A DNA stretch of 56,780 nt from an uncultured Lachnospiraceae bacterium. GTDB taxonomy: Bacteria > Bacillota > Clostridia > Lachnospirales > Lachnospiraceae. Below are positions 10,040 to 49,766 of this stretch, in pieces. The notes beneath the pieces were generated by a model. It had not been told where the DNA came from and did not search any database. It saw only the letters and a list, made by a program, of their open reading frames with translations. The position numbers and the translations under genes are program-made. The stretch spans positions 1 to 56,780 of the forward strand of contig CACWHK010000011.1 of assembly GCA_902760755.1 (NCBI GenBank), written 5' to 3'. How positions within the stretch are numbered: position 1 is the first letter of the stretch; each line of letters begins with the position of its first letter.

Positions 10040-10574
10040 ATGATAAAAGTACTGTTCGTCTGCCACGGCAACATCTGCCGTTCTCCGATGGCAGAGTTTG
10101 TGATGAAGGATATGGTGCGGCGGGAAAGGCGCGAGGATCGGTTCCACATCGAGTCCCGGGCGACGCACACGGATGAGATCTGGGGCGGAAAGGGATCGGT
10201 TCCACATCGAGTCCCGGGCGACGCACACGGATGAGATCTGGGGCGGAAAGGGGAACCCGGTTTATCCGCCGGCCAGGGAGAAACTTGCGGAGCACGGGAT
10301 TTCCTGCAAGGGGAAGACGGCGCAGCTGCTTACAAAACAGGATTACAGAGATTATGACTATATCATCGGGATGGACCGGGAGAATATGCGGTGGATCGAG
10401 AGGATCTGCGGCGGGGATCCGGAGCATAAGGTTTCCATGCTGATGGGTTACACGAAGCGGCCCGGAAGTGTGGCGGATCCATGGTATACGGGGGATTTCA
10501 ACGCGACCTGGAGAGATGTGGAAGAAGGCTGCAGAGGGCTGCTGGAGTATCTGAAGGATCAAAATGTATGGTGA
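10040..10574 (+). pseudogene. Low-molecular-weight protein-tyrosine phosphatase, broken by a 58-bp duplication
   Basis: The N-terminal frame from ATG 10040 carries the phosphate loop VCHGNICRSPMAEF, with the catalytic Cys and Arg. The C-terminal frame carries YDYIIGMDRENMRW and the general-acid loop VADPWYTGDF. Both fit low-molecular-weight tyrosine phosphatases. A perfect 58-bp tandem duplication (10136-10251) separates them in different frames, so the first frame stops at 10234 without the acid loop. With one copy removed, the gene gives 158 residues, normal for the family. The second frame has an ATG at 10173 without a ribosome site. As written the enzyme should be inactive. Confidence 0.88.
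10136..10251 (+). repeat. 58-bp perfect tandem duplication
   Basis: Two identical 58-bp units (10136-10193 and 10194-10251), each starting GATCGGTTCCACATC and ending GGGGCGGAAAGG. The unit length leaves a remainder of one on division by three, so it shifts the phosphatase frame. Confidence 0.97.
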
Positions 10575-20706: not shown

Positions 20707-20893
20707 GCGTTGAGCGCGGAAGGGTAAGTGAGTTATTCCGGAAGCGTAAAGAGCAGTGGAAACGTTCGATATTTGCACGAAAATCGCGGCTTCGTGCAGG
20801 GAATGCCCCTTGACGCAGGCAGGAAAATGGAATAGTCTATATCCGTGTGCGAACTCACACATTTTTCTTTTTGGAAGAAATCGGAGGAGCAGG
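20707..20893 (+). promoter_or_regulatory. Structured 5' leader of the CaCA exchanger
   Basis: The untranslated leader has a perfect 8-bp stem TGCACGAA / TTCGTGCA (20774-20781 with 20791-20798), then GGG-AATG-CCC, and close to the gene GTGTG / CACAC (20845-20849 with 20856-20860) followed by ATTTTTCTTTTT, which looks like an attenuator. I do not recognise a known riboswitch class. Confidence 0.4.
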
Positions 20894-21880
20894 ATGAAGA
20901 TACTATTGGATATACTAATCCTTCTTGCGGGCTTTGTGGGACTGATCAAGGGCGCGGACTGGTTTGTGGACGGCAGTGCAGCCGTGGCAAAACGGTTCCA
21001 TGTTCCGGGGGTGATCATCGGTCTTACCATCGTGGCCATGGGAACCTCGGCACCGGAGCTGGCAGTCAGTACCTCGGCAGCCATTCAGGGGTCCAACGAG
21101 ATCGCCATCAGTAACGTGATCGGATCGAACCTCTTTAACCTTCTGATGGTGCTCGGCATCTGTGCCATCATTCATTCGGTACCGGTGGATAAGGTGATCC
21201 TGAAGCGGGATTATCCCGTGAATCTGGGGATCACGATCGTACTGTTCCTGTTTGCGGGACTTCCGGCACTGTTAAACGGAGACCTTTTCAGTCACGAGAT
21301 GACCGAGGATGTGGGAAATGTCAGCCGTGTCTGCGGAATCACCTTCCTCCTGATCTTTGCAGCCTATATCTTTTTCCTGATCCGGGACGCAAAGAAGAAC
21401 AAGCTTGAGGAAGAGGAGGAGGAAGCGGAGCCCATGGCTCCCTGGAAATGTGTGCTTCTCATCCTGATCGGAATCGGCCTTATCGTAGGCGGTGGAGAAG
21501 CAGTGGTCTACGGCGCGAAGGAGATCGCACTGGCAGCCGGTATGTCGGAGACGCTGGTAGGTCTTACCATCGTGGCTCTCGGAACCAGTCTTCCTGAGCT
21601 GGTAACCTCCATCGTTGCGGCCCATAAGGGCCAGGTGGATATGGCGGTGGGCAACTGTATCGGTTCCAACATTTTCAATATCCTGCTGATCCTGGGTGTT
21701 TCCACAACGATCCATCCCATCGGAGTCAACGTCGCAAATATCTGGGATCTGATCATTCTGATCGCGGTCAGCATCGTAACGCTGATGTTCTGCATCAACA
21801 AGAAGCGGATCAGCCGGGGAGAAGGCATCGTGATGGTGCTGATGTATGTGGGAAGTATGGTGTTTGCCGTGGTACGTTAA
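20894..21880 (+). CDS. CaCA-family cation/proton or sodium/calcium exchanger
   Basis: 328 residues with ten or so hydrophobic segments and the two inverted alpha repeats of the Ca2+/cation antiporter family: VAMGTSAPELAVSTSA with NVIGSNLFN, and VALGTSLPELVTSIVA with NCIGSNIFN. The acidic loop between the halves reads KLEEEEEEAEPM. By family it exchanges calcium for sodium or protons across the cytoplasmic membrane (YrbG-like). The start is ATG 20894 behind GGAGGAG; an upstream in-frame frame to 20756 lies in the leader. Confidence 0.92.
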   Translation: MKILLDILILLAGFVGLIKGADWFVDGSAAVAKRFHVPGVIIGLTIVAMGTSAPELAVSTSAAIQGSNEIAISNVIGSNLFNLLMVLGICAIIHSVPVDKVILKRDYPVNLGITIVLFLFAGLPALLNGDLFSHEMTEDVGNVSRVCGITFLLIFAAYIFFLIRDAKKNKLEEEEEEAEPMAPWKCVLLILIGIGLIVGGGEAVVYGAKEIALAAGMSETLVGLTIVALGTSLPELVTSIVAAHKGQVDMAVGNCIGSNIFNILLILGVSTTIHPIGVNVANIWDLIILIAVSIVTLMFCINKKRISRGEGIVMVLMYVGSMVFAVVR

Positions 21881-21885
21881 CAGAG

Positions 21886-22059
21886 CTATTCACACACCCG
21901 AATGCGTGATGCATCCGCGTGCTTGCACGCAGGGATGCGAGCATGCATCCGGGGGCTGCGAAGCAGCGAAGCACCGAGCGCAGCAGTTGTGAGCCGTGAA
22001 ACGGCGACAGTCACGCCGCAGGCGTGGATGAACTGCTGCCGTGAGGTGCGCGTGAATAG
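21886..22059. ncRNA. Structured intergenic element A (candidate RNA or structured repeat)
   Basis: A 174-nt multi-stem element. Stems: P1 CTATTCAC/GTGAATAG (21886-21893 with 22052-22059); P2 GCATCC/GGATGC enclosing GCGTG-CTTG-CACGC (21911-21938); P3 GCTGC-GAA-GCAGC (21955-21967); P4 GCACC/GGTGC (21971-21975 with 22045-22049); P5 GCAGCAGTT/AACTGCTGC (21980-21988 with 22031-22039); P6 GCCGT-GAA-ACGGC (21993-22005); P7 CACGCC-GCA-GGCGTG (22012-22026). Element B at 47052 has the same plan with different paired bases. It fills the gap between the exchanger and DAHP synthase. Strand is not known. Confidence 0.7.
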
Positions 22060-22092
22060 TTAAAATCATTATAAAGAAAGAGGACTTACAAC

Positions 22093-23124
22093 ATGGACAT
22101 GAAATTTATTCGTAAACTGCCGACGCCCCAGGAGCTGAAGGAGGAGTTTCCCATCAGCCCGGAGATCGTGGCTGCAAAGGAGAAGCGTGACGCGGAGATC
22201 CGGAAGATCTTTACCGGAGAGAGCGACAAGTTCCTTCTGATCATCGGCCCCTGCTCCGCAGACAATGAGGAGGCGGTTCTTGATTATATGCACCGTCTGG
22301 CCCGTGTGGCTGAGAAGGTGGAGGATAAGATCTTTATCATCCCCCGTGTGTACACCAACAAGCCCCGTACCACAGGCATCGGCTACAAGGGCATGCTGCA
22401 CCAGCCGAATCCGGAGGGAAAGGAAGACCTGCTGGGCGGTATCATTGCCATCCGTGAGATGCATGCAAGAGTCGTTCGTGAGACCGGCTTCACCTGCGCA
22501 GAGGAAATGCTCTACCCGGAGAACCACCGGTACCTGTCCGATCTGCTTTCCTATGTAGCCATCGGAGCACGGTCCGTAGAGGATCAGCAGCACCGTCTGG
22601 TAGCCAGCGGTATTGGAATCCCGGTAGGTATGAAGAACCCCACCGGCGGTGATATGTCCGTAATGATGAACTCCATTATTGCAGCCCAGAGCACCCAGCG
22701 GTTCCTGTACAGAGGCTGGGAGGTAGAAACTCCGGGCAACCCGCTGGCCCATGCCATCATGCGTGGTTACGTCGATAAGTTCGGACGAAACATCCCCAAC
22801 TACCATTACGAAGACCTTCGGGCACTTCTGGATGCCTACGCAGCAAAGCCGGAGATCGTAAACCCGGCCTGCATCGTGGATACGAACCACTCAAACTCCG
22901 GTAAGAAGTACCTGGAGCAGATCCGTATCGCCAAGGATGTGCTGCACAGCCGCAGAGCCTCCGATGATATCCGGAAGCTGGTGAAGGGACTTATGATCGA
23001 GAGCTACATCGAGGATGGAGCACAGAAGATCGGAGAGGGTATCTACGGAAAGTCCATCACCGATCCGTGCCTCGGATGGGAAAAGACAGAACAGCTGATC
23101 TTAGGACTGGCAGATGAGCTGTAA
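22093..23124 (+). CDS. aroF: 3-deoxy-7-phosphoheptulonate (DAHP) synthase, type I alpha
   Basis: 343 residues, the usual length of AroF/G/H enzymes. It has LLIIGPCSADNEEAVLDYM, PRVYTNKPRTTG, GYKGMLHQPNP, a GARSVEDQQHR block, PVGMKNPTGGDMSVMMN, VDTNHSNSGKKYLEQ and GLMIESYIEDGAQK. It condenses phosphoenolpyruvate and erythrose 4-phosphate, the first step of the shikimate pathway. The ATG has GAGGAC upstream. A strong terminator follows. Confidence 0.95.
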   Translation: MDMKFIRKLPTPQELKEEFPISPEIVAAKEKRDAEIRKIFTGESDKFLLIIGPCSADNEEAVLDYMHRLARVAEKVEDKIFIIPRVYTNKPRTTGIGYKGMLHQPNPEGKEDLLGGIIAIREMHARVVRETGFTCAEEMLYPENHRYLSDLLSYVAIGARSVEDQQHRLVASGIGIPVGMKNPTGGDMSVMMNSIIAAQSTQRFLYRGWEVETPGNPLAHAIMRGYVDKFGRNIPNYHYEDLRALLDAYAAKPEIVNPACIVDTNHSNSGKKYLEQIRIAKDVLHSRRASDDIRKLVKGLMIESYIEDGAQKIGEGIYGKSITDPCLGWEKTEQLILGLADEL

Positions 23125-23134
23125 GATAATAATA

Positions 23135-23187
23135 GAGAGAGGGCCGGATCGTACGACATTTAAATGCCGTACGATCCGGCCCTCTCT
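23135..23187. terminator. Long bidirectional terminator after DAHP synthase
   Basis: A perfect 21-bp stem beginning GAGAGAGGGCCGGATCG, with an ATTTAAAT centre, followed by TTTTAAAA. It serves the convergent DAHP synthase and ACT genes. Confidence 0.9.
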
Positions 23188-23197
23188 CTTTTAAAAT

Positions 23198-23602
23198 CTA
23201 GATCATTGCATATCCGCGACTCTTAAGGCATGCCTCCACCTCGGCGTAGCCCTGCGCATGCAGGATGGCCACCGGTGTTGCGTCCTCACGGCTGTAGGAT
23301 ACATAGAGGTAATCCAGATTGATGTTGCTGTCCTCGATATCGATCAGCAGCTGATTGAGACTGCCCACGGCATCCGGGATCTTCACGCCGATCACGCGGG
23401 AGATCTTGCAGGTAAAGCCGTTCTCCTTCAGAAGCTTAAACGCTCTCTCTATCTCATCAACCAGCAGGCGGACGATTCCGTACTCCGCACTGTCGTTGGT
23501 GATCGCGCAGTAGATATTCAGGTTGTTGTCCGTGAGGAGCTGCGTGATCTCCCGCATGGAACCCTTCTTGTTTTCCGCAAAAATTGAAATCTGTTCTACC
23601 AT
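23198..23602 (-). CDS. Tandem ACT-domain protein
   Basis: 134 residues made of two ACT domains: the first begins MVEQISIFAENKKGSMREI (about 1-68), the second begins VIGVKIPDAVGSLNQLL (about 70-134). ACT domains bind amino acids and regulate enzymes; free-standing two-domain forms are common in Clostridia. Sitting convergent to DAHP synthase, it may sense an aromatic amino acid, but that is inference. The start at 23602 has GGAGGCAAC just upstream; a longer frame to 23734 runs through the divergent promoter region. Confidence 0.85.
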   Translation of the reverse strand: MVEQISIFAENKKGSMREITQLLTDNNLNIYCAITNDSAEYGIVRLLVDEIERAFKLLKENGFTCKISRVIGVKIPDAVGSLNQLLIDIEDSNINLDYLYVSYSREDATPVAILHAQGYAEVEACLKSRGYAMI

Positions 23603-44900: not shown

Positions 44901-45554
44901 TTATTCGGTCAGTCTGTAGCCGGTATTATATACGGATTTCAGATTCCCCTTCAGATCCAGCTTTCTGCGGAGGCGCTGCACATGCAGGTCCAGCGTCCGC
45001 GTATCCCCCATCCAGTCCGTCTCCCAGACCGTCTCGTAGATCCGGTCGCGATAGAGGGTGATATTTACGTTCCGGACGAACATAAGAAGCAGCTCGAACT
45101 CCTTCGGTGTCAGTGTCACATCCTCGCCGTCCTTTGTGACGGTGCGGTTGGTTGCATCGATCACCAGGTTTCTGAACTGCAGGATGTCTTCCGTCTTATG
45201 ATACCGACGCAGCACGATATTGATCCGCGCCAGCAGCTCCACGATCTCGAAGGGCTTCACCAGATAGTCCTCCGCACCGGAGGTGAGTCCCTTCATGCGG
45301 TCGTCCAGGGATGCTTTGGCGGTGATAAAGATGACGGGGATCCCCATGGGGCGGATGTACTCCATCAGCTCATAGCCGTTGATCTCCGGCAGCATGATAT
45401 CCAGCAGGATCAGGTCAAATGTATGGTCCTCCAGAATATCCGCAGCGGCTTTCCCGTCATACAGTGCAGTGCAGTTGTAGCCGGCCTTCGTCAGGTTCAG
45501 CCGGATCAGATCCGAGATCGGTTTTTCATCCTCTACGATCAGTATCTTCAACAT
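44901..45554 (-). CDS. OmpR/PhoB-family response regulator
   Basis: 217 residues. Receiver domain: ILIVEDEKPISDLI, phospho-acceptor Asp 52 in LILLDIMLPE, VIFITAKAS and DYLVKPFEIVE. The C-terminal winged-helix domain reads VTLTPKEFELLLMFVRN, then RDRIYETVWETDWMGDTRTL and DLHVQRLRRKLD. It binds DNA as a dimer on direct repeats, and the 11-bp-spaced GATACATTTC boxes found at four promoters in this window are the natural candidates for its sites. Its ribosome site AAGGAGGGG lies inside a tandemly repeated leader. Confidence 0.94.
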   Translation of the reverse strand: MLKILIVEDEKPISDLIRLNLTKAGYNCTALYDGKAAADILEDHTFDLILLDIMLPEINGYELMEYIRPMGIPVIFITAKASLDDRMKGLTSGAEDYLVKPFEIVELLARINIVLRRYHKTEDILQFRNLVIDATNRTVTKDGEDVTLTPKEFELLLMFVRNVNITLYRDRIYETVWETDWMGDTRTLDLHVQRLRRKLDLKGNLKSVYNTGYRLTE

Positions 45555-45555
45555 T

Positions 45556-45844
45556 GCGGGCCCCTCCTTCTACCCATGGCACGAAGCCTGCTTCGCAGTC
45601 TTCCCTCGGCTTTGCCGAGGTATCGCGCCCTTGGAGCGATGTGTCCTCACTCCGTTCGGATACAAGGGATCTTCCCACACGCTGCGCGTGCGGGCCCCTC
45701 CTTCTACCCATGGCACGAAGCCTGCTTCGCAGTCTTCCCTCGGCTTTGCCGAGGTATCGCGCCCTTGGCGCGATGTGTCCTCACTCCGTTCGGATACAAG
45801 GGATCTTCCCACACGCTGCGCGTGCGGGCCCCTCCTTCTACCCA
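45556..45844. repeat. Two tandem 134-bp structured repeats in the regulator leader
   Basis: Units 45556-45689 and 45690-45823 differ at about one position (GGAGCGAT against GGCGCGAT), followed by 21 bases of a third unit. Each holds hairpins CCTCGGC-TTT-GCCGAGG, ATCGCGCC-CTT-GGCGCGAT, GAAGC-CT-GCTTC and CACGC-TGC-GCGTG. On the minus strand each carries AAGGAGGGG, the regulator's ribosome site. Confidence 0.92.
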
Positions 45845-46025: not shown

Positions 46026-47045
46026 ATGAAGAAATCCCTTAAAAAACTGAATATCGTGCTTTCAGGGCTTCTGCTTCTGTCCCTTACCGGCTGTGGCGAG
46101 GCTGTGGAAGACAGCCTTGTCCCGCCGGAAACCCCCTCGTACAACGCATACGTTCCGAGCCAGGCGGATGTGATCCGCGGAGATCTGGAGCGGAAGTTTG
46201 AGAAGCGCCTGGACCTTGTGGGCTATGACCGGATGCGCTATCGCTTCACCCAGGCGGAGTACATGGAGCTCTACGGAACCTACCAGCTGGAGGTGGACGA
46301 GGTCCACGTAAATGTAGGTGACGCGGTGCATCCCGGGGACTTGATGGTGTCCTTCCACTCCAAGGTGCTGGACGATAAGATAACCGAAAATGAAAAGACC
46401 ATTACAGATGCGCAGCTTTCCATAGATCACCTGAAGAAGCTGAGTTCCATAGATCCGACGCAGGATTATGCGGAGGAGATTAAACGGCTGGAGCGGGAGA
46501 TCAGTGTGGCGAGGCTGTACATTTCCGATGTACATGATACCTATAATAAGCTGAACATCTTCGCGAAGGAGGACGGCCACGTCAGCATGGTGAACTCCAT
46601 GCTGCAGGACGGATACGTGGTTCCGGAGACAGACCTGATCCTGGTGGACGTGGATGATGGAATCTACCGCGCGGAGATCACGGGAGAGGCAAGCTTTAAG
46701 ACAGGAGAGCAGTACACAGCCACCACACGGTACAGCGAGTGCCAGGTGGAGGTGATCGATCCTCCGGAGGGAGCCGGTGCTTCCATGGTTTACTTCCGAC
46801 CCGTCGGACGGGAGGGAGACATCCTGGAAAAGAATCTGATGCTGCAAATGGAGCTTCCGGTCCTGAAGGATGTGTGTTATGTAAACCGGCAGGCGGTATA
46901 TGAAAAGGACGGAAAATACTTCGTCTACGTTGTAAAGGAGAACGGCATGCGGGATGCAGTTTATATCACCGCAGGAGAGCAGTTCGGAAACTACCTGATC
47001 GTAAAGGAAGGTTTAAACGGCGGAGAAAAGGTGGAATTGCCGTAA
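46026..47045 (+). CDS. HlyD/RND-type adaptor lipoprotein 1
   Basis: 339 residues. Lipobox SLTGC, Cys 23. The mature part has the adaptor plan: a biotinyl-lipoyl-like hairpin (VDEVHVNVGDAVHPGDLMVS, later FAKEDGHVSMVNSML), a coiled-coil arm (about 115-170, ENEKTITDAQLSIDHLKKL), a beta barrel (YRAEITGEASFKTGEQ) and a C-terminal membrane-proximal part ending GLNGGEKVELP. In Gram-positives such proteins pair with MacB-like permeases. AAGGACAG lies before the ATG. It is the first gene of the exporter operon. Confidence 0.85.
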   Translation: MKKSLKKLNIVLSGLLLLSLTGCGEAVEDSLVPPETPSYNAYVPSQADVIRGDLERKFEKRLDLVGYDRMRYRFTQAEYMELYGTYQLEVDEVHVNVGDAVHPGDLMVSFHSKVLDDKITENEKTITDAQLSIDHLKKLSSIDPTQDYAEEIKRLEREISVARLYISDVHDTYNKLNIFAKEDGHVSMVNSMLQDGYVVPETDLILVDVDDGIYRAEITGEASFKTGEQYTATTRYSECQVEVIDPPEGAGASMVYFRPVGREGDILEKNLMLQMELPVLKDVCYVNRQAVYEKDGKYFVYVVKENGMRDAVYITAGEQFGNYLIVKEGLNGGEKVELP

Positions 47046-47051
47046 CGCAGA

Positions 47052-47217
47052 GCTATTCGCAGCCTGGGCGAACATGCGATTGCGTGCTTGCACGCAAAAT
47101 CGCATATGTTCGTACATGCCCTGCGAAGCAGGAATGCCACGAGCGCCGCAGTCATAAGCCGCGCAGCGGCGACGGATGCGAAGCAGACGGACTGCGGCCG
47201 CCGTGGCAGCGAATAGC
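47052..47217. ncRNA. Structured intergenic element B (same architecture as element A)
   Basis: 166 nt. Stems: P1 CTATTCGC/GCGAATAG (47053-47060 with 47209-47216); P2 CGAACAT/ATGTTCG, GCGAT/ATCGC and TGCGTG-CTTG-CACGCA (47069-47112); P3 CCTGC-GAA-GCAGG (47120-47132); P4 TGCCACG/CGTGGCA (47135-47141 with 47202-47208); P5 GCCGCAGTC/GACTGCGGC (47145-47153 with 47190-47198); P6 GCCGC-GCA-GCGGC (47158-47170). P7 is short here (TGC-GAA-GCA). It lies between the two adaptor genes, inside the operon. Confidence 0.7.
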
Positions 47218-47240: not shown

Positions 47241-49766
47241 ATGCTGAAAGCAAAAACGCAAAACAGAATAAGAAGATCCATCGCGATGCTGCTTTGCGTT
47301 GGTTTGCTTGGCGGAACCCTTACCGCCTGCGGGGAAGCAAAGAAGGCTGCGGCACCGGAGCTTCTGGAGCCTGCGGGCATCACGGAATCCTATCGCCCCG
47401 TGAAGCGGAGAGATATCGGTGACACCAGCATGCTGGAGGGCATCGTGGTTGCGGAGTCCTATCCGGTCTTCGCGGAGAAGCCCTTCGAGATCTATCAGTT
47501 AAATGTAACGCCCGGCGATTATGTGGAGGCCGGGGATGTGATCGCCACCGGAGACACGAGGGATCTGGATACCGGTATATCGAATCTCAATCGGGAGCTC
47601 GAATCCCTTTCCCTGGAGCGCTCCGCAGGACAGACGATCTCTGCGAAGACCGTGGAGATGCTGACCTGGCAGAAGAAGGCTGCAGAGGAAGCAGGCTTCT
47701 CCGGAGATGCCTACGACACGGAGATCCGGATCGAGAAGGAGAATCTTCGGTATGAGCAGGAGTCGATCGATGCTTCGATCCGAGCCGTGAAGAAGGAGCT
47801 TTCCAAGCTGCAGGAGGATAAGGGGAAGCGGGTCTACCGTGCACCCCACAGCGGATATGTGACATTTCTGAAGGATATTTCTGCAACCAATTCCGTTCAG
47901 CAGAGCGAGAACATCGCGGTGATCTCGGACTACAACGACCTCTATATCGAGGTGGCAAAGCCGACGAACGCCTATAAATTCGCAAACTATCAGGAAAAGT
48001 ATATCCTGGTGGAAGGAAAGAAGCACACCGTACAGGAGTATGAATATACCACAAAGGAAATGAGCTACGCAGAGACCATGTCCGCGTACCCTTACGTCCG
48101 TTTCCGCGTGGAGGGCGTACCCATGGAGATCGGTGCGACCATGCCGATCTACTTCGCAAAGAAGAGCAGCACGGATGTGATCTCTGTCGAGAACGACTCG
48201 ATCTACCGTGAAGGTGAGATCTATTACTGTTACGTAAAGAATCAGGACGGAGAGCAGGAGCGTCGGAACCTGGAGGTCGGTGCCGTGGATTCTCTCTACA
48301 CCGAGGTGATCTCCGGTCTGGAGGAGGGAGACCTGGTCTTCTATGATAACAAGTCCGTGCTTCCGGTGAAGTACACCGAGTACGAGGTGAAGGCCAAGGA
48401 TTATATCGAAGAGTTCTATGCTGAGGCAATCTCCATGCTGCTGACCGAGCATGACCTGTATCTTTCGGATTACAGCGGATCCCTTACATCCTCAAAGGTG
48501 TCCATGGGGGATCAGGTGGAGAAGGGACAGGAGCTGCTGGAGATCGAGATTCCGAGAGGGAAGGGCGAGCTGGCAGAGCAAAAGAACCGGATCACGGATA
48601 CGGAGCAGAGCCATTCGAACCGTATGAAGCAGCTGGATCAGCAGATCGCCGACACGAAGGCAAGGATGGAAGCTGCAGCCAACCAGCCGGCTCCCACGAC
48701 CAGGAAGAAGGAAACGAACGAAGAAACCACAAAGGAGCCGGAAGCAGGAACCACGAATGCGCCGGAAGCGGGCACTTCGAATGCATCGCAGAATCAGGAT
48801 TCGGAAGCTCCGGGTGAGGACGAAACCAACGAACCAGGTGAGAAGGATACTGATGCACCGGACAACACGCCGGACAACACACCGGGCAGAGTCGAGACCG
48901 ACGCACCGGGCGGAGTTGATACGGATGTACCGGGCGAAGATGATACGGAAAATGATGTGCAGGATGAGGAAGACGACACGCCCTCGGATGAGGAACGGGA
49001 AGCACTTCGGGCCAGCCTCTATGTAAAGGAAATCTGCTCCGCGGAGCTGGAGATCCTTGCACAGCAAAAGAAGCTGGAGGAGTACAGCTACAATTATACC
49101 ATCCGGCAGCTGAAGGATCAGCTGGCAGAGATGAATGTAGGAGCATCGACCAACGGCAAGGTAACCGTGACCGCACGGGCAGAGGGAACCCTGGGCCAGA
49201 TCGGTCTGCAGGAGAACACATCCCTTTATAAGGGAGAGTACCTCTTCACCGTGAACCGGGAGGGAGAGAAGCTTCTTCGGATCAGCATGCCGAAGGCCCG
49301 CGGACAGGTGAGCCAGACGGCAGCCAAGCCGGGTCAGAAGATCGAGCTTCGGACGGATGATAAGGTTTATACGGGAACCTGTATCGCGGTCAACGGAAAT
49401 CAGGATAAAAACTATCTCTTTACCAGAGACGGGAAGGAGCATCTGACCCATTCCCAGCCGTACACCGCAGGGCAGACCGAGCAGTTCTTTGTGCGGATGG
49501 ATGATGATTCCTACTACACGGACGGCATGCCGTCGGCCGTGGCAAGCTTCCAGGGACGCTTTATCCGCAGCGGTATCACCGTTCCCTCGCGGGCAGTGTA
49601 CAGCGAGAAGGATACGAAGACGGATGAAATGATCAACTTCGTCTGGAAGGTAACAGAGGGCGGTCTGGTGAAGCAGACCGTAACAGTCTATGAGAGCAAT
49701 CTCCCGGGAGATGAGAAGATGATCCTCTCGGGTGTGGAGATCGGGGACAAGGTGGTTGTGGAGTAG
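47241..49766 (+). CDS. Double adaptor lipoprotein with Pro/Gly/Asp-rich linker
   Basis: 841 residues, over twice the usual adaptor length. Lipobox TLTAC, Cys 30. The N-terminal half has one lipoyl/hairpin/barrel set (LNVTPGDYVEAGDVIATGDT, a coiled coil about 110-200, APHSGYVTFLKDI). The C-terminal half has a second lipoyl half (SKVSMGDQVEKGQELLEIEI) and barrel (TARAEGTLGQIG, PSRAVYSEKDTKTDEMINF). Between the hairpin arms is a low-complexity linker (about 485-590; repeats such as PDNTPDNTPG and APGGVDTDVPGEDD). It could reach across the cell wall. It precedes the permease by 64 bp. Confidence 0.82.
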   Translation: MLKAKTQNRIRRSIAMLLCVGLLGGTLTACGEAKKAAAPELLEPAGITESYRPVKRRDIGDTSMLEGIVVAESYPVFAEKPFEIYQLNVTPGDYVEAGDVIATGDTRDLDTGISNLNRELESLSLERSAGQTISAKTVEMLTWQKKAAEEAGFSGDAYDTEIRIEKENLRYEQESIDASIRAVKKELSKLQEDKGKRVYRAPHSGYVTFLKDISATNSVQQSENIAVISDYNDLYIEVAKPTNAYKFANYQEKYILVEGKKHTVQEYEYTTKEMSYAETMSAYPYVRFRVEGVPMEIGATMPIYFAKKSSTDVISVENDSIYREGEIYYCYVKNQDGEQERRNLEVGAVDSLYTEVISGLEEGDLVFYDNKSVLPVKYTEYEVKAKDYIEEFYAEAISMLLTEHDLYLSDYSGSLTSSKVSMGDQVEKGQELLEIEIPRGKGELAEQKNRITDTEQSHSNRMKQLDQQIADTKARMEAAANQPAPTTRKKETNEETTKEPEAGTTNAPEAGTSNASQNQDSEAPGEDETNEPGEKDTDAPDNTPDNTPGRVETDAPGGVDTDVPGEDDTENDVQDEEDDTPSDEEREALRASLYVKEICSAELEILAQQKKLEEYSYNYTIRQLKDQLAEMNVGASTNGKVTVTARAEGTLGQIGLQENTSLYKGEYLFTVNREGEKLLRISMPKARGQVSQTAAKPGQKIELRTDDKVYTGTCIAVNGNQDKNYLFTRDGKEHLTHSQPYTAGQTEQFFVRMDDDSYYTDGMPSAVASFQGRFIRSGITVPSRAVYSEKDTKTDEMINFVWKVTEGGLVKQTVTVYESNLPGDEKMILSGVEIGDKVVVE

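Follow-up and report, generated by a model that had tools for sequence, protein, structure and literature searches.

Genes and folded elements in the window

The window, that is, the whole stretch of 56,780 nt that was analysed, carries two copies of a strongly folded element, each lying between two genes of the same strand. Element A is 174 nt long and separates a gene of the sodium/calcium exchanger family from an aroF-like gene; element B precedes a HlyD-like gene. Their main features are given below, with bit scores for two covariance models: R1, built from seven copies (A, B, and five others), and R2, built from 74 aligned copies.

20756–21880, plus strand: gene upstream of A, sodium/calcium exchanger family (Pfam PF01699 over 20894–21880); its stop codon ends 5 nt 5' of A
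21886–22059, plus strand: element A, whole (R1 142.4 bits, R2 129.3 bits, fold z −6.94)
21886–21893, plus strand: 5' arm of P1, the outer stem of A, with its partner at 22052–22059 (predicted fold)
21897–21953, plus strand: P2 of A, a long variable hairpin (predicted fold, helices 2–3)
21917–21930, plus strand: conserved P2 tip of A, GCGTGCTTGCACGC, with a CTTG loop (sequence search of the window)
21955–21967, plus strand: P3 hairpin of A, GCTGC-GAA-GCAGC (predicted fold, helix 4)
21971–22049, plus strand: P4 domain of A (predicted fold, helices 5–8)
21993–22005, plus strand: P5 hairpin of A, GCCGT-GAA-ACGGC, numbered P6 in the original prediction (fold, helix 7; 99.7% of cells paired)
22011–22027, plus strand: P6 hairpin of A, GCA loop (fold, helix 8; 99.0% of cells paired)
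22052–22059, plus strand: 3' arm of P1 of A (predicted fold, covariation)
22093–23124, plus strand: gene downstream of A, DAHP synthase, aroF-like (Pfam PF00793); it starts 33 nt past A
46026–47045, plus strand: gene upstream of B, no Pfam match at 1e-5; its stop lies 7 nt before B
47053–47216, plus strand: element B, the second copy (R1 137.4 bits, R2 131.4 bits, fold z −7.50)
47082–47095, plus strand: conserved P2 tip of B (sequence search of the window)
47120–47132, plus strand: P3 hairpin of B, CCTGC-GAA-GCAGG (predicted fold)
47135–47208, plus strand: P4 domain of B, outer pairs TGCCACG/CGTGGCA (predicted fold)
47241–49766, plus strand: gene downstream of B, HlyD/biotinyl-lipoyl-like; it starts 24 nt past B

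The two elements share one architecture, in which the outer stem P1 is followed by the long hairpin P2 with its GCGTGCTTGCACGC tip, the short hairpin P3, and a P4 domain enclosing P5 and P6. In A, the outer pairs of P4 are GCACC/GGTGC, and an inner stem, GCAGCAGTT/AACTGCTGC, encloses P5 and P6. None of 200 shuffles folded as well as the minimum-energy fold of either element. With up to one mismatch allowed, A and B are the only sites of the P2 tip in the window, against 0.00 sites expected by chance.

These positions agree with the original prediction, which had set B one base wider at either end (47052–47217). The stems it quoted recur in the predicted minimum-energy folds, except that its nine-base P5, the inner stem of the P4 domain, pairs at eight of nine positions as quoted in both elements. 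The blocks it described as unpaired (GAGCGC, an AAGCCG type, and GGCGAC) are present, but four or five of the six bases of each are paired in the folds. P2, with its variable arms and conserved tip, was missing from its list of covarying stems.

A dispersed family in one genus of Lachnospiraceae

A BLAST search with A gave matches in five of 61 genomes of the genus. The alignment of the seven copies behind R1 showed two-sided change at 43 of 62 predicted pairs. A covariance-model search of the kind proposed with the original prediction reached further, as R1 matched at least 51 of the 61 genomes (E≤0.01, at most 44 candidates scored per genome). With R2 at E≤0.001 and the best 150 candidates scored in each, the own genome held 25 matches and the complete genome G002 held 33, numbers that include partial tandem copies, Clostridiales-1 loci, and one antisense match. 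Copies above 120 bits with R2 numbered 14 and 17, respectively. Thus, A and B are members of a dispersed, strongly folded family in a genus of Lachnospiraceae.

Across the order, matches were found in at least 16 of 216 genomes including the own (E≤1e-4, 12 candidates scored per genome), and the best match outside the own genome reached 82.3 bits. A pattern scan of genome contigs returned 24 stretches, 20 of Clostridia type and four from other phyla. Ten of the 24 exceeded 120 bits with R1, all being copies already counted in G002, G010, G019, G020, G035, G036, G073, and G081 and hence not independent; none of the four from other phyla matched R1 at E≤0.1. Near-alike copies within one genome are rare among the 74, with three in G002 at 83–87% identity and the rest below 68%.

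Partial tandem copies were seen directly behind full elements at four loci (L054, 1432–1550; L077, 1483–1658; L083, 1400–1512; L070, 1215–1333). The second copy at L054, a yebC locus, lacks the P2 hairpin.

Remote kinship to Clostridiales-1 and comparison with known repeat families

At the gathering threshold, Rfam recognised only two tRNAs in the whole window. In single-stretch searches, Clostridiales-1 (RF01699) matched A with 28.1 bits (E 2.2e-4) and B with 33.4 bits (E 7.5e-6), against a gathering cut-off of 48. Both elements match model positions 1–166 end to end, with long unaligned parts. A whole-genome RF01699 search placed five loci over threshold elsewhere, A and B not being among them. 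Because sub-threshold matches also appeared in four of 14 control genomes, weak whole-genome scores carry little meaning. Conversely, R1 scored 39.8 and 35.9 bits over the full length of two true Clostridiales-1 loci of the own genome (L001 and L003). In 16 further sources, 12 of them holding an element above 60 bits with R1 or R2, no Clostridiales-1 copy reached the gathering threshold.

On these model scores, we take the family to be a remote relative of Clostridiales-1 rather than a member. Shared traits are the length (166 positions in Clostridiales-1), a closed outer stem, a first long hairpin with a GCGUGCUUGCACGC-type tip, and later hairpins with CGAAG-type loops. The setting is also similar, since a same-strand ORF ends −16 to 5 nt from the 5' end in all five over-threshold Clostridiales-1 copies of the own genome, and a start codon follows 16–39 nt past the 3' end in four of the five. 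The 3' half differs: in the Rfam alignments, that of A and B pairs differently or stays unaligned. As to novelty, which the original prediction had left undecided, the element lies over threshold for no Rfam family but is a remote relative of RF01699. Clostridiales-1 RNA was described in 2010 (Weinberg et al., PMC2864571, consulted in part). Titles and abstract openings in the open-licence literature yielded no function for Clostridiales-1/RF01699, and no report of structured or palindromic intergenic repeats in Lachnospiraceae or Butyrivibrio was found in that literature.

The original prediction had also raised kinship to HEARO/omega-RNA, which the searches contradict: at E≤5, cmscan returned Clostridiales-1, mir-5595, mir-297, and DUF3800-IX for A and B, with HEARO absent. 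Neither is IscB/IsrB found beside A, where the neighbours carry PF01699 and PF00793, or beside B, where they are HlyD-like or without a Pfam match. The broader proposal of an independent small RNA acting in trans, or of a HEARO/omega-type guide RNA, would suit the size, the branched fold, and the kinship to an Rfam family of the "sRNA" type. A simple consensus scan of 21000–23600 found no promoter-like site around A, however, and the position is tied to the upstream gene, as set out below; this proposal is very improbable.

Among better-known repeats, the ERIC (IRU/RU-1) family group of enterobacteria consists of small intergenic repeats of about 100–200 bp with a stable RNA fold, which are co-transcribed and exert an orientation-dependent effect on the upstream mRNA, according to the parts of PMC2229807 consulted. 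The present family resembles ERIC as a small intergenic repeat with a stable RNA fold, and differs in being multi-branched, with covarying arms and a tie to stop codons. REP sequences are extragenic palindromes of 20–40 bp with a proposed action on translation or mRNA (PMC12306157 and PMC3733652, in part); in E. coli, 446 of 4,072 lie within 15 nt of a stop codon (PMC12306157, same parts). Like REPs, the present elements are extragenic, palindromic, and close to stop codons (59 of 70 copies at −8 to 15 nt and one more at 20 nt). Unlike REPs, they span about 175 nt with six stems.

Placement behind stop codons

Gene context was counted for 70 of 71 listed elements (L010 was left out), with the criterion of a same-strand ORF of at least 100 codons whose end falls −15 to 25 nt from the element's 5' end. 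Sixty of the 70 have such an ORF, its end ranging from 8 nt inside the element to 20 nt ahead of it. The mirror case at the 3' end occurred in 12 of 70 (Fisher p 1e-16 against the 5' end), a level of ORF-calling noise that includes at least one spurious case, an antisense ORF over aroF beside A. Ten copies lie outside a stop-codon context, and at least two of these (L089 and L098) are antisense to both called neighbours.

The outer stem tends to continue into the flanks, with a mean of 2.13 extra pairs vs 0.61 with shuffled partners. The continuation can be longer in other genera of the order: it reaches 11 pairs into the host flanks in L226 and 13 in L241, where it spans the upstream ORF's stop codon. 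The pentamer AACTG occurs within the upstream 40 nt in 15 of 51 non-redundant copies (after removal of similar flanks) vs 19 of 229 other gene ends, for a pattern that was picked after viewing the same data. As a target motif it was set aside as a weak lead only, being already present at empty yebC and aroF sites. A further upstream motif, CTGG..GA, at the 3' ends of yebC (L112–L141) and aroF (L142–L154) lies in coding sequence, where it encodes an acidic C-terminus, and likewise recurs at empty sites.

Replication direction was considered as another determinant of orientation. In G002 alone, 14 of 17 copies, counted from the match list, are co-directional with replication (genes, 160 of 205). 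The strand bias hinted at by this count was not borne out in the draft genomes, where 30 of 42 copies are co-directional vs 388 of 507 genes, and eight of the 12 head-on draft copies lie in a stop-codon context. Drafts and G002 together give 43 of 58 co-directional copies (58 of 59 copies counted). For copies in a stop-codon context, the count is 42 of 50 vs 548 of 712 genes (p 0.15). Element orientation thus follows the upstream gene, with no further detectable contribution from the direction of replication. Among the eight copies outside a stop-codon context that could be placed (L053, L059, L066, L073, L078, L089, L094, and L098), seven are head-on. This may only mirror the co-directional bias of genes, since copies antisense to genes are expected to be head-on when most genes are co-directional; an effect of replication on this minority is possible.

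Occupied and empty sites in relatives

The exchanger gene was found in 50 of 61 genomes; 30 loci were fetched and 20 searched with R2. Among these 20, the exchanger–aroF site carries a match in the own genome only. In 11 other genomes, the exchanger gene and aroF were read as adjacent without an element, and at the remaining eight loci, aroF was not seen beside the gene or not looked for. At the 3' end of aroF, the element is present in four of 12 loci read (G002, G010, G011, and G017), the sequence of the G019 locus ending about 98 nt past the gene. For yebC, which 61 genomes carry, the element follows the 3' end in seven of 30 loci fetched, one of them cut by a contig end; a weak 38-bit match on the strand opposite to yebC in G079 (L123) was not counted as occupied.

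Copies are present at some and absent from others of these exchanger–aroF, aroF, and yebC loci, so they come and go. Orthologous sites are found both occupied and empty, which shows that the genes examined can do without the element. The stop-adjacent position in gene orientation and the occupied and empty sites in relatives are new here. The view of the element as either a non-coding RNA or a mobile repeat therefore holds in outline, as a dispersed family with a conserved fold and with occupied and empty sites.

TTAA flanks A on both sides by eye (21877–21880 and 22060–22063), and no clean repeat was seen at the other junctions read. A phage or plasmid origin was rejected, as A had no match in either collection and the pattern of P2 tip plus P3 was absent from viral contigs. 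Y1 transposase matches occur in 36 of 61 genomes of the genus, with none in the own genome (88% complete). As a mover, this enzyme was rejected on that absence and on counts by eye that do not follow element counts: G002 has 11 matches and G017 none, both genomes being element-rich.

Covariation, and whether RNA or DNA is folded

In the 74-copy alignment, which was fitted to the structure and favours it, standard pairs fill 96.3% of 4496 cells, vs 65.3% in shuffles and at most 43.7% with slid pairings. The two-sided changes first noticed between A and B hold well beyond that pair, as 61 of 62 pairs show one in at least one sequence (shuffles, 48.1). Cells changed on both sides number 1400 vs 370 in shuffles, and the covariation score is 0.789 vs 0.201 shuffled and at most 0.097 slid. 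In P1 (helix 1), all eight pairs show two-sided change and 96.7% of cells are paired.

Change within single loci was followed in 36 same-locus pairs, grouped by eye from upstream sequence in the same structure-fitted alignment. They comprise 1536 unchanged cells, 500 Watson-Crick double changes, 57 changes involving G-U, 89 broken pairs, and 50 gaps. Element identity ranges from 56% to 99% and upstream-flank identity, compared in 29 of the 36, from 63% to 97%; some pairs of low flank identity (63%, 72%, and 73%) may not be orthologous. At the upper end, L063/L095 reach 99% identity in the element and 90% in the flank. In L054/L025, L102/L086, and L063/L107, the rate of change is about the same at paired and unpaired positions, which is surprising for a strongly selected RNA; in L073/L094 and L063/L087, paired positions change more slowly.

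The original prediction had read the two-sided changes as proof that selection keeps the structure. The changes are real, but the step to selection is not secured, because G-U pairs are scarce (2.4% of cells) and few same-locus changes involve G-U (57 against 500 double changes), so that DNA-level rewriting of arms could contribute. In SAM riboswitches from the genus, which served as a control that is smaller and has diverged less (26 of 27 loci, two shifted by one base), G-U makes up 4.7% of cells. As a further control, tRNA was of no use, since ARAGORN gave none in 12 loci. Two-sided vs one-sided standard changes stand at 1398 vs 81 in the elements and 48 vs 15 in the riboswitches.

Such figures are what a neutral or selfish inverted repeat would produce if template switching in replication copied arm onto arm and pairing were kept in that way, not by selection. 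The wide divergence of P2 arms at the same locus across genomes, still complementary, and the continuation of the outer stem into host flanks, including the 11 and 13 further pairs of L226 and L241, fit this process. It has been described in published work on RNA genes (PMC8794818) and on E. coli quasipalindromes (PMC7202029), both consulted in part. Other observations run against it. Compensations are mostly not clustered in tracts (p<0.05 in two of 18 pairs), although correction of single pairs would not cluster either. G-U cells outnumber A-C cells by 109 to 38 (89 to 38 minus one column pair), and for 67 of 74 elements the fold of the sense strand is better than that of the antisense, as it is for 24 of 26 SAM riboswitches; neither is expected from a strand-blind process. 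Orientation with the upstream gene would also be left unexplained. Template switching as the whole explanation is thus rather unlikely. Scarce G-U and the triloops described next suggest that DNA-level rewriting may add to the covariation, and both may apply, if template switching (PMC8794818) also mends the arms of an element that acts as RNA.

RNA-parameter folds of the 70 copies contain 190 triloops, of which 164 have the form C(GNA)G. Among 72 tetraloops, 58 are G(CNNG)C and three GNRA, with no UNCG. The gCNNGc type is a stable class of DNA tetraloop. GNA loops form extraordinarily stable DNA minihairpins (Yoshizawa 1997, as cited in the parts seen of PMC6479982 and PMC11101458). These loop classes, the folding of A with DNA parameters (z −5.75), and the seven head-on copies among the eight outside a stop-codon context would suit a single-stranded-DNA element whose fold works during replication or transposition, on the pattern of the IS200/IS605 and REP/RAYT systems. 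Against this stand the lack of a strand bias beyond that of genes, in the drafts alone or with G002, and the absence of a Y1 transposase match from the own genome, and the ViennaRNA DNA parameters do not single out the C(GNA)G and G(CNNG)C loops. Action as single-stranded DNA is accordingly improbable.

Terminator features and a proposed role

A run of at least five T residues at P2 is present in 26 of 70 copies. It accompanies 14 of 23 copies that face a convergent gene, six of 31 followed by a co-directional gene, and six of 16 unclassified copies; when the co-directional gene lies within 60 nt, the count falls to one of 14. The contrast of convergent with co-directional copies, and with those at ≤60 nt, gives p 0.004 and 0.002, respectively. 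The family might hence be regarded as ordinary intrinsic terminators enlarged by additional domains, in line with the frequency of the run before convergent genes. Yet such a run is missing from 44 of 70 copies, among them A and B, and the covarying hairpins P3, P5, and P6 are not part of P2, which leaves little likelihood for this account. Since the frequency of the run differs with the direction of the next gene, the element seems tuned to its place, as a terminator at operon ends and a passable knot inside operons. A and B are of the passable kind, with the next start 33 and 24 nt away and no P2 run of five or more T.

Taken together, position, fold, and sense-strand bias suggest, at about even odds (probability near 0.5), that A and B belong to a dispersed non-coding folded element present as 3'-UTR or intercistronic RNA and transcribed in sense with the preceding gene. 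By analogy with ERIC (PMC2229807) and stop-adjacent REPs (PMC12306157), both consulted in part, we propose that such an RNA would determine how long the upstream message lasts. After the last ribosome has left the stop codon, the transcribed element would fold into an almost nuclease-proof knot beside that codon. The knot may then fix the lifetime of the upstream message and uncouple it from what follows, either as a bar to 3' exonucleases or by supplying cleavage sites, in the way suggested for REP and ERIC. At operon ends, where P2 has often gained a U-tract, it may double as a terminator. Inside operons, as at A and B, a P2 without a U-tract would let transcription pass. The past spread of copies would be that of short non-autonomous elements.

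A bolder version, to which we give little credence, is that of a bacterial SINE-like RNA, which would spread via its own transcript, land sense-wise behind stop codons, and have its arms rewritten in each copy. Every copy would then keep the fold and not the sequence.

Presence and absence at the same gene ends in relatives provide natural insertion experiments on the mRNA life and 3' ends of yebC and aroF. The 74 aligned copies and the same-locus pairs form a data set for separating selection from arm-to-arm rewriting in replication, a question that bears on the reading of covariation as proof of RNA function.

The window holds other repeats as well. At 45555–45844, 2.2 copies of a 134-bp unit (99% identity) lie immediately ahead of the start of a minus-strand response-regulator-like ORF (44901–45554). 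The unit contains GCCTGCTTCGCAG and similar small hairpins and may be another structured repeat. At 10135–10252, a 58-bp unit forms a perfect tandem duplication.
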